Program-made: the position numbers and the translations under genes
Shown here: positions 12,274 to 56,944 of the stretch, piece by piece
Position numbering within the stretch: position 1 is the stretch's first letter
How the letters are laid out: every line of letters begins with the position of its first letter
Notes under the pieces: model-generated
The model's input: the letters and a program-made list of their open reading frames with translations, nothing else
Databases searched by the model: none
What the model was told of the DNA's origin: nothing
NCBI GenBank assembly: GCA_027049035.1
Contig: JALTVI010000069.1
Span: 1-62,952, forward strand
DNA: 62,952 bases
Direction of reading: 5' to 3'
Source: Sulfurovum sp.
GTDB taxonomy: Bacteria; Campylobacterota; Campylobacteria; Campylobacterales; Sulfurovaceae

Positions 12274-12687
12274 TCAAGGTGATTTGACCACCTGCGCCTT
12301 TGCACCAATGAGTCCGATGAGTCCGTTCTTGACGTTGAGCGGTGTGAAGCCGTGCTTTTCCAGGATGCGTGAAGCAGCTACACTGCGGCTGCCGCTGCGG
12401 CAGTAGACGATGACGGGCTCTTTTTTGTATGCAGCCAACTTATCCAAATTGGTTTCGAGTCTGCCCAGCGGAATGAGTGTGGCCCCCGGCAGATGGCCCT
12501 TCCGGAACTCCTTGGGTGTACGAACATCGAGAATGGGTATGTCGGGGTTCTTTTCGATACGCTCCAGTGCCTGCTGCGGGGTGATGGTCTCGAAGTTGGC
12601 GAAGATCCACCCCTTTGTGTACGCAAACCAGACTACCAGCAGCACCATTGCGATCCAGTAGAGGGAGTTGATTACCTTTTTGGACAT
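12274..12687 (-). CDS. Membrane-anchored rhodanese
   Basis: About 137 residues: one N-terminal transmembrane helix (about 5-27), then a single rhodanese domain with LDVRTPKEFRKGHLPGA and the active-site loop YCRSGSRS. The start is placed at ATG 12687, behind AAGGAT; an in-frame ATG at 12702 would place this RBS inside the gene. The domain is predicted to face the periplasm. It is a single-gene unit on the minus strand. Immediately upstream lies the structured element at 12706-12793. Confidence 0.85.
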   Translation of the reverse strand: MSKKVINSLYWIAMVLLVVWFAYTKGWIFANFETITPQQALERIEKNPDIPILDVRTPKEFRKGHLPGATLIPLGRLETNLDKLAAYKKEPVIVYCRSGSRSVAASRILEKHGFTPLNVKNGLIGLIGAKAQVVKSP

Positions 12688-12705: not shown

Positions 12706-12793
12706 TTGGTTTCACTCGATGGCGACAAAGGAGCACTCAACCCGAAGGGCGGCTCCGCCGTTTGCGACTGCCAGAGCTATCGAGTGAAACCAA
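12706..12793 (-). repeat. Structured palindromic element, copy A
   Basis: Perfect 15-bp arms TTGGTTTCACTCGAT (12706-12720) and ATCGAGTGAAACCAA (12779-12793) enclose 58 nt containing a GC-rich inner hairpin. Read on the minus strand it aligns with copy B at 55348-55436: both have AACGGC, then CGCCCTT(A)CGGGTTG, then TTGTCGC. The outer arms differ between copies yet stay complementary. It ends 18 nt before the rhodanese start codon. Confidence 0.75.
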
Positions 12794-54218: not shown

Positions 54219-55277
54219 TTATCTAAATTTAAAGCTAATCAGCGCCAAAATATTGGCAATAAAGGCGATCATCCAAAAGCGGACGATGATCTTGTTTTCC
54301 GGCCAGCCTTTGAGTTCGAAGTGGTGGTGTATGGGGGCCATGAGGAAGACGCGTTTGCCGCGAAGTTTGAAACTGGCTACCTGGACAATGACCGAAATGG
54401 TTTCGATGACAAAGATAAAGCCAATGAGAATGAGCAGCACTTCACTTTTGCCAAGAATGGCAAGGTAGGCGAGAAAGCCGCCTATTGCAAGGCTGCCGGT
54501 ATCGCCCATGAAGATTTCAGCAGGGTAGGCGTTGTACCACAAAAAGCCCATCAGACCGCCGCCTAAGGCGGCTGCCAGGATCATAACCTCTCCGACCCCT
54601 TTGATGTTGGGGATCAGCAGGTAGCTCGAGAAGATGGCGTGTCCGGTGATGTATACGATGATACCCAGGGTAAAGAGTGCGATGATGCTTGGTACCGTGG
54701 CCAGTCCGTCGAGCCCATCGGTAAGGTTGACAGCATTGGTGGTTGCCAGGAAGATGACCACCCAGAAAAAGAGAGCGAAAAAGCCCATATCAAAAAGCGG
54801 TTTCTTATAGAAAGGGATGTAAAAGTCTGTCGGAAATCCTGTGTAGATGAGCAGTCCGGTCGCTGCTGCGGCGATGACGGCAAGCAGTGCCATTTTCCCC
54901 TTTGGAGTGAGACCTTCAAGATTGTCTCCTGAGAGAATCTTGCCAAGGTCATCCTTCATACCTACAGCACCGAAGCCGAGGAGGGTGATGATACCGCCCC
55001 AGATGTAGGGGTTTGCAAGGTTGACAGTCAGCAGTGCGGCAAGGAGTGTGCCTGTTAGAAAGACAGCACCGCCCATGGTGGCGGTTTTGCTTTTGCTCTC
55101 ATGCGCTTTGATGAATTTGCTGATAGGCTGATTGGCCTCTTTCGCTGCTGCCCAGCGGATGTACTTAGGCATCGCAATAAGGGTAAAAATGAAGGCGATC
55201 ATGAAGGCGAAGCCGGCACGTACAGTGATGTAGCCAAAAAGGTTGATATCGAAAAGTTGCGAGATGGTATAGAGCAT
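54219..55277 (-). CDS. mraY: Phospho-N-acetylmuramoyl-pentapeptide transferase
   Basis: 352 residues, ten spans. Catalytic aspartates in MKDDLGK (about 107-113) and [13 protein letters not shown], with the loop [16 protein letters not shown] near the C-terminus. It makes lipid I. Upstream of murD on the same strand, a usual cell-wall pairing. Confidence 0.96.
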
Positions 55278-55347: not shown

Positions 55348-55436
55348 GGTTGTTTCGTGCGGCACTCCGGCGCGATGCGAACGGCAAGCGCCCTTACGGG
55401 TTGGGCGCATCGCTTGTCGCACCGCACGAAACAACC
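55348..55436 (+). repeat. Structured palindromic element, copy B
   Basis: Perfect 15-bp arms GGTTGTTTCGTGCGG (55348-55362) and CCGCACGAAACAACC (55422-55436). Inside, GCGATGCG can pair with CGCATCGC, and the core CGCCCTTACGGGTTG matches copy A at 12706-12793. It ends 26 nt before the gpmI start codon, on the same strand as gpmI. Confidence 0.78.
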
Positions 55437-55462: not shown

Positions 55463-56944
55463 ATGGATATACAGAAGACACTGCTAATTATTACTGACGG
55501 CATCGGCTATAAACCGGAGAGTGCCTGCAACGCGTTTACTGATGCAGAGAAACCGACCTACGATGCACTGGAAAACGTTCCCAAGGCACTCATCTCCACC
55601 TATGGGTTAAGTGTGGGGCTTCCGGAAGGCCAAATGGGCAACTCTGAAGTAGGACATATGACGATCGGTTCGGGCAGGGTGCTTTACCAGGATCTGGTCA
55701 AAATTTCTTTGGCGCTGGAGGATGGCAGCATTGAACAGAACGAGGTGCTTAAAAACATTCTTGAAACCAGCGACCGGGTGCACCTGATCGGGCTGATGAG
55801 TGACGGCGGGGTACATTCGCATATCGAACATACGATAGGGTTTGCCAAATTGGCCAAGGCAAGAGGTAAAAAGGTCTTTTTGCATCTCATCACAGACGGA
55901 AGGGATGTTAGCCCTACTTCTGCAGTGCAGTATCTGGAACAGGTCGAAGCGATCTGCGATGAGGATATTCAGATCGCAACCATCGGCGGGCGCTTCTATA
56001 CGATGGACAGAGACAACCGCTGGGAGCGTGTCGAAAAGGGCTACCGTGCCATCGCAGAGGCTACTCCCAAGACCGATCTCTCCCCCAAAGCGTACATCGA
56101 GGCAAGTTACGAGAAGGGTGAGACCGACGAGTTCATCGAGCCGGTTGCTTTTACAGGATATGAGGGGATGAAAGAGGGAGATGCGGTCATCGTGACCAAC
56201 TTCCGCTCCGACAGGGTGCGTGAAATTACGACGGCTCTGGGAGATCCCGACTTCAATGCATTCGAGCGTAGCTACATTCCGCTGCACATTGCGACGATGA
56301 CACAGTATGACGCATCCTTTCCCTACCCGGTGCTCTTCCCCAAAGAGGCACCCAAAAACACACTTGCAGAGGTGATTGCCAATGCCGGGCTGCGACAGCT
56401 GCATACAGCGGAGACCGAGAAGTATGCGCATGTGACATTCTTTCTAAACGGCGGCATTGAAGAGCCGATGGTAGGGGAGAGCCGTGTGCTCATTCCAAGT
56501 CCTGACGTGAAGACTTACGACCTCAAACCGGAGATGTCCGCACCGGAAGTGGGGGATGCGGTACGTACGGCGATGGATGAGGCGTACGACTTTATTGTGG
56601 TCAACTTCGCCAACGGTGATATGGTGGGCCATACCGGAAACTACGAAGCGGCAAAAAAGGCGGTGGAAGCGGTCGATACAGAGCTCGGAAAGATCGTCGC
56701 CAAAGCCAAAGAGGCAGGCTATGCCATCGTGCTTACCTCCGACCACGGCAACTGTGAAGAGATGTGTGACGGCGAGGGGCATGTGCTGACAAACCATACG
56801 GTGGGCGATGTCTGGTGCTACATTCTTGCTGATGGTGTTGATAAGGTCAAGGAGGGTGGCGGACTCAACAATGTCGCGCCTACGGTACTTAAACTGATGG
56901 GCTTGCCGATTCCGGATGAGATGGATGAACCGCTGATTGCATAG
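55463..56944 (+). CDS. gpmI: 2,3-bisphosphoglycerate-independent phosphoglycerate mutase
   Basis: 493 residues from ATG 55463; the open frame extends upstream through the structured element but that part is not family sequence. Metal ligand D12 (ITDGIGY), catalytic S61 in [14 protein letters not shown], late motif SDHGNCEEM. It interconverts 3- and 2-phosphoglycerate, complementing gap-pgk-tpiA. RBS is weak (GGGAC). Confidence 0.94.

Follow-up and report, generated by a model that had tools for sequence, protein, structure and literature searches.

The two palindromes described here lie immediately upstream of the start codons of two genes, and the question they raise is whether sequences of this kind are structured leader RNAs or copies of a mobile palindrome. 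Both are found in a 62,952 nt stretch of DNA from Sulfurovum sp. (contig JALTVI010000069.1 of assembly GCA_027049035.1), the whole of which will be referred to as the window. The first of them (copy A), read on the minus strand, is comprised of a left arm, TTGGTTTCACTCGAT (12779..12793), a conserved core with a three-way junction tip (12721..12777) and a right arm, ATCGAGTGAAACCAA (12706..12720), which pairs perfectly with the left arm. The second (copy B) is read on the plus strand and consists of a left arm, GGTTGTTTCGTGCGG (55348..55362), a core with a three-way junction tip (55364..55421), which starts with ACTC and ends with CGCA, and a right arm, CCGCACGAAACAACC (55422..55436), again a perfect partner of the left arm. 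In both copies the outer helix is 15 bp long. The divergent neighbour of copy B in the ORF list is a 352 aa ORF on the minus strand (54219..55277), which we take to be MraY. Downstream of copy A is a rhodanese-domain gene on the minus strand (12274..12687; Pfam PF00581, E 3e-17), and copy B is followed on the plus strand by gpmI (55463..56944), which encodes a phosphoglycerate mutase of the iPGM type (Pfam PF06415, E 2.1e-72; PF01676, E 3.6e-75). The Pfam matches confirm both gene products, and the gaps to their start codons that were given in the initial annotation, 18 nt for the rhodanese gene and 26 nt for gpmI, are correct.

Both hairpins proved to be real and to lie where they had been placed. 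In folding analyses, copies A and B were more stable than all 200 of their dinucleotide shuffles on either strand, with z-scores against the shuffles of -4.2 and -4.4, respectively, on the strand on which they were originally read (hereafter the annotated strand) and of -5.7 and -6.3 for the reverse complements. The proposal that they share a core was likewise borne out, as the window contains two instances of the core pattern, whereas 100 shuffled versions of it contained none. Additionally, the genome to which the window belongs contains 8 exact copies of this pattern and none of the reversed pattern, and chance similarity of the two copies is excluded by this control together with the shuffles. 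We consider it probable (roughly 0.6) that A and B are members of a non-autonomous, dispersed, MITE-like fold-back element of the Campylobacterales and not a leader of the riboswitch type. The observations presented below include a conserved core, arms that pair site by site, a high and patchy copy number and the presence of copies in all types of intergenic regions as well as in one gene. The spread of this element as a small DNA element is indicated only indirectly by its copy number, dispersal and patchy occupancy.

To determine the extent of this family, a covariance model (R1) was used that was seeded with ten copies and covers only the 57 nt core, the arms being excluded. Copy A scored 83 bits (E 1.6e-18) and copy B 61.5 bits (E 1e-12) with this model, and 31 copies were detected in their own genome at E<=0.01. 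Within the genus, matches were present in 31 of the 78 genomes (E<=0.1), with 0 to 36 copies each in this search and from 0 to about 40 copies per congeneric genome overall; about 150 among the matches listed were examined. In a sample of the order, 38/398 genomes from 15/87 genera had matches at E<=0.001, and 43 of these copies were read. The set of 160 copies on which most of our analyses are based corresponds to 161 collected copies minus one duplicate, and it omits 15 named loci (duplicate records of the same genomes and outgroup records) and, with the exception of one locus (L147), matches shorter than 50 nt. When 80 stretches were tested, the strong matches (>30 bits) came from records named Sulfurovum, Sulfurovaceae or Campylobacterales, and most of the exact-pattern matches from other phyla failed the covariance model. 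Two weak matches of 27-28 bits, both inside called ORFs, were noted in records from Verrucomicrobiales and Planctomycetota (L046, 2113-2165; L097, 5089-5144). Viral contigs gave no model matches. In a search of the whole window against Rfam 15, only two tRNAs reached the gathering threshold, and searches of 16 loci at permissive thresholds yielded nothing plausible at the position of the element; a known Rfam RNA was rejected, since the weak matches were to eukaryotic or off-target families and below gathering scores. A search of titles and the beginnings of abstracts found no publication describing this element, which does not prove it undescribed. We do not assign the dispersed element to any named family, and it is absent from Rfam.

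The 57 nt core is conserved across the 160 copies and can be read as a three-way junction, the helices of which covary. Its layout consists of a stem, a short AA, a variable hairpin mostly closed by C-G, a CCC-loop-GGG hairpin, a TTGRG-like linker and the other side of the stem. The parser employed handled 125 of the 183 distinct cores, in which the R:Y pair that closes the last stem was A-T in 106 cases, G-C in 18 and A-C in one; pairing in the third helix, the first pair of which is partly forced by the parser, was 0.87 compared to 0.59 in shuffled sequences. A longer form, with some 80 extra nt in the tip and a total length of about 135-139 nt, occurs both in the genome of the window and in one relative. 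The additional hairpin in these copies has a constant loop, AACTGCTT, and a covarying stem (L148, L149, L150, L151, L152, L342 and L121). In other genera, the same tip is found on palindromes that reach a length of about 178 nt. One of the long-form copies (L121, 5540-5730, from genome G002) is located inside a protein gene, the frame of which is open throughout, and the orthologue of this gene in the window's genome retains no more than the right-hand portion of the element (L140, near 1850). In-frame copies inside ORFs are also reported for the Rickettsia palindromic elements (PMC10969869).

Based upon their arms and core ends, the copies fall into two classes, with copy A belonging to class I and copy B to class II; because the class labels vary slightly between the different analyses, the class totals given below vary as well. 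Class I is characterized by one arm sequence, GGTTTCACTCGAT and its complement, that is common to many unrelated loci, at which near-identical copies occur. A column profile of 96 class I copies indicates a conserved unit of about 88 nt, and in 29 of these 96 copies weak outer repeats (TCTGAA/TTCAGA, with up to one mismatch) are present on either side. Class II copies start with ACTC and end with CGCA, and they have locus-specific arms that differ at nearly every locus. At one locus (L041, region 1404-1556 on the element's strand) two tandem class II copies precede a single gene, each with its own arms. Overall, the arm sequences of the 160 copies form about 30 groups, and in 157/160 copies at least 8 of 12 arm bases pair, whereas the median in re-paired controls is 5-6 of 12. 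As the arms are outside the search model, their pairing provides independent evidence. A structured, repeated element in which pairing is kept, as initially proposed, is upheld.

Compensatory changes are commonly regarded as proving that an RNA is functional, and such changes had been claimed from the differences between the outer arms of copies A and B. Although pairing is kept in both, these copies belong to different classes and are from unrelated loci, so that the contrast between them does not by itself represent compensatory substitution. The claim holds at the level of the family, where 98 class I copies of standard geometry show two-sided changes with pairing kept in 55 cells comprising 17 pair types, the one-sided changes numbering 43. 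Replication template switching is described as creating and mending stems (PMC8794818), and arm pairing can therefore persist without selection on RNA. This family, with its abundant two-sided changes, behaves mainly as mobile DNA, and it lends itself to asking to what extent stems owe their continued pairing to replication template switching as opposed to selection on RNA.

The placement of the copies relative to genes differs for the two classes. Among the 160 copies, 73 are in sense orientation between tandem genes and 20 in antisense, 45 are between divergent and 12 between convergent genes, and 10 are in other contexts or at contig ends; these gene contexts are from a simple ORF caller, and one or more starts are wrong, as indicated by a few large gaps. 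The suggested bias toward the sense orientation is thus present in tandem contexts, and the proposed test of orientation on the model matches gave a divided result: sense and antisense are unequal, yet there are 20 antisense and 12 convergent copies. The proposed preference for 5' regions fails for class I, where 58 tandem, 37 divergent and 11 convergent sites compare with 56.5, 34.6 and 15.0 expected from the intergenic lengths of the own genome (p=0.53), i.e., the sites are proportional to the make-up of intergenic DNA. The 40 sense and 18 antisense tandem sites of class I are not above the prediction from fork alignment (p=0.10). For class II, the copies of which often follow the upstream stop codon at a distance of no more than some 20-40 nt, counting by distinct tandem junction gave 16 sense and 2 antisense (p=0.0013), and fork alignment may not fully explain this sense bias.

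The class II results bear on the possibility that the element acts in cis as RNA, i.e., as a leader or intercistronic element of the sense mRNA that affects stability, processing or translation of the downstream gene, is maintained by selection and has spread secondarily. The 16:2 ratio and the proximity to upstream stop codons speak for this, as does the conservation of the core while the arms change, and the sense bias is not predicted by mobility alone. Furthermore, the batD, hsp20, infB-rbfA, gltX, dnaJ and ffh junctions carry class II copies in several species. However, the genes downstream are functionally unrelated, the corresponding junction is without the element in many congeners, class I shows no preference for 5' regions, no Rfam family corresponds to it, and the arm mismatches and folding energies discussed below favour the antisense strand. 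Leader RNAs and riboswitches are similar to this element in having a conserved junction core and a variable first stem, to which the class II sense bias can be added, but the element differs from them in its fold, which favours the other strand, and in its patchy presence, unrelated genes and lack of an Rfam match. As an account of the whole family, we regard a cis-acting RNA as unlikely, and of the initial proposal of a leader RNA only the class II part finds support. In view of the 16:2 sense bias, some class II copies may be recruited RNA elements, and those in operon spacers are cases of possible recruitment; an extension of the fold-back reading would be that a fraction of the old class II copies in such spacers have been recruited in this manner.

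The comparison of orthologous junctions provides further insights in this regard. At the ffh, gpmI, dnaJ, hsp20, gltX and batD junctions, the cores and the outer flanks of different genomes align and the arms differ, each set being self-complementary, and at some junctions even close relatives with the same flanks and core have unrelated self-complementary arms. There are also several junctions at which some relatives have a copy and others have none. At the gpmI junction, an element is present in five close relatives, the window's genome included, and is missing from more distant ones. In three of the five the core has decayed and remnants of the arms persist, which argues against selection on a cis-acting RNA; another has an intact core and related arms. 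The fifth is the window's genome, where copy B shares the upstream flank with the others but has unrelated arms and may be either a new insertion or a replacement. With regard to a target-site duplication, the sole candidate for an empty/filled pair has an element remnant in both genomes, and the edges at gpmI are not clean. Insertion into pre-existing palindromes was also considered and rejected, as the empty junctions of relatives, albeit of other species, show neither arm. Of the two options that were originally put forward, the mobile palindrome is favoured by the variable copy number, the near-identical dispersed copies and the patchy occupancy of junctions.

We have also examined which strand of the element is likely to fold. 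On the annotated strand, isolated arm mismatches were of the A.C type in 65 cases and G.T in 30, and in the 98 class I copies of standard geometry the corresponding numbers were 29 and 6; because these counts include related copies that are not independent, nominal p-values overstate the significance. An A.C on the annotated strand is a G.T on the other, and thus the mismatches favour the opposite strand. The reverse complement also folds better in 95/111 class I and 42/49 class II copies (137/160 in total) and in all 12 longer relatives from other genera that were folded. Contrary to this, the lower core helix has a conserved G.T on the annotated strand, and the loop of the fourth helix on this strand presumably fits, in most cases, the UNCG tetraloop type, which argues for the annotated strand as well. 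The constrained folding strand seems to be the reverse complement, which is antisense to the neighbouring genes.

In addition to gene sense, the orientation of the copies was examined with respect to the replication fork. In seven genomes where the origin could be placed by dnaA, the core was fork-aligned in 26 of 30 copies (all model matches with E<=0.05), compared to a gene baseline of 53% determined for three of them. In one of these genomes (G102), 10 of 11 copies were fork-aligned, and at several sites most of the local genes were opposite; the antisense sites in the seven placed genomes were still fork-aligned in 4/5 cases. Hence, in the placed genomes orientation follows the fork at least as well as it follows gene sense. 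GC skew, which indicated the fork correctly in 20/20 test regions, showed 23 of 33 copies to be fork-aligned in the window's own genome (23/31 without two copies near zero skew), and this is not above the 64% co-orientation of genes (p=0.31). Within the window, where the GC skew is positive throughout, copy B points with the fork and copy A against it. Alignment with the fork is strong in the genomes with a placed origin, whereas for the window's genome it is not proven; if it is true in more genomes, it would point to replication-coupled spread of a small palindrome.

A serious rival explanation for this bias is that copies survive better in the orientation that keeps the stronger hairpin off the lagging-strand template, which would give the same result. 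According to this, the element would be an old palindromic repeat without active mobility, the symmetry of which is due to template switching only, and copies with the weaker-folding strand on the lagging-strand template would be deleted less often. The fork-aligned copies indeed place the weaker-folding strand there, copies decay in place, and template switching can keep stems paired. However, the occurrence of near-identical class I copies at numerous unrelated loci implies that the spread was fairly recent, and presence among close relatives is patchy. We regard such an immobile repeat as the most doubtful of the explanations considered here.

The fork alignment and the strand-specific fold are also compatible with the element being a REP- or IS200/IS605-like substrate of a Y1 (HUH) transposase, e.g., a RAYT, that acts via the single-stranded lagging-strand template. 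Other types of REPs are reported from Sulfurovum (PMC3733652), and IS608 and ISDra2 are stated to target the lagging-strand template (PMC6006769). REPs resemble our element in being dispersed palindromes, found in Sulfurovum among others, with strand-specific hairpins, but at 20-40 nt they are much shorter than the present unit of about 88 nt or more with its three-way junction tip, and they are described as mainly downstream of genes (PMC3733652). The GTAG/CGTC tag of REPs was seen at neither end of the conserved unit in 96 class I copies. The likeness to IS200/IS605 elements lies in the fork orientation and the hairpin of one defined strand (PMC6006769), and the difference in the freely varying arms and lack of a linked Y1 gene. 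Our search for transposases, which covered Y1 genes, revealed two such genes in the window's own genome, but among 30 Y1 loci there was no match to the model, and across genomes Y1 genes do not track copy number. No Y1 gene was detected in the incomplete assemblies of the copy-rich genomes G066 (22 copies), G091 (22) and G031 (12). We consider a Y1 substrate to be quite improbable.

The closest likeness is to MITEs (PMC10969869), which are short, gene-less, multi-copy inverted repeats that are mostly intergenic. The element shares with them the inverted repeats at its ends and the many dispersed gene-less copies. However, the terminal repeats of MITEs are normally conserved, whereas here it is the tip that is conserved and the arms that vary; arm sequence is conserved between copies only in class I and differs at nearly every class II locus. 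The search for Y1 genes also yielded no parent transposon. For the fold-back element that we favour, the proposed mechanism is that it multiplies as DNA, with a single-stranded hairpin bearing the three-way junction tip being recognized by a putative enzyme, and the strand that must fold would be the reverse complement of the annotated one. Coupling of its movement or survival to DNA replication would produce the fork-aligned orientation. The arms could stay complementary while drifting because template switching during replication would re-copy one arm from the other, and copies that no longer fold would stop spreading. A different form of mobility, which appears distinctly unlikely although somewhat less so than a Y1 substrate, is that the mobile unit is the core itself and that the self-complementary arms at each site are written by inverted copying of local DNA; the arms would then arise by template switching during replication and would not be carried along. 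If true, this would be transposition with an inverted duplication in place of a direct one, and the hairpin would be self-made at the landing site.

In these genomes, unrelated hairpins frequently occupy the intergenic spacers. Another palindromic repeat, GGAATCGGAGACTTTAG..., is present in the batD and ATP-grasp spacers of other relatives (L173, L174 and L221). Sequences ending in CTTGTCGCAT (L203, L204 and L206) were initially considered as remote relatives of the element and were dropped, as L439 suggested another repeat family; this further family, CTCATACGACTAG...TCGCATT, is found in the infB-rbfA and gpmI spacers of genomes without the element (L203, L204, L206 and L439). Lastly, palindromes of the GAGGATGACA/CGTCATCC type occur in similar spacers (L220 and L239), and these are perhaps the CGTC repeats reported for Sulfurovum.
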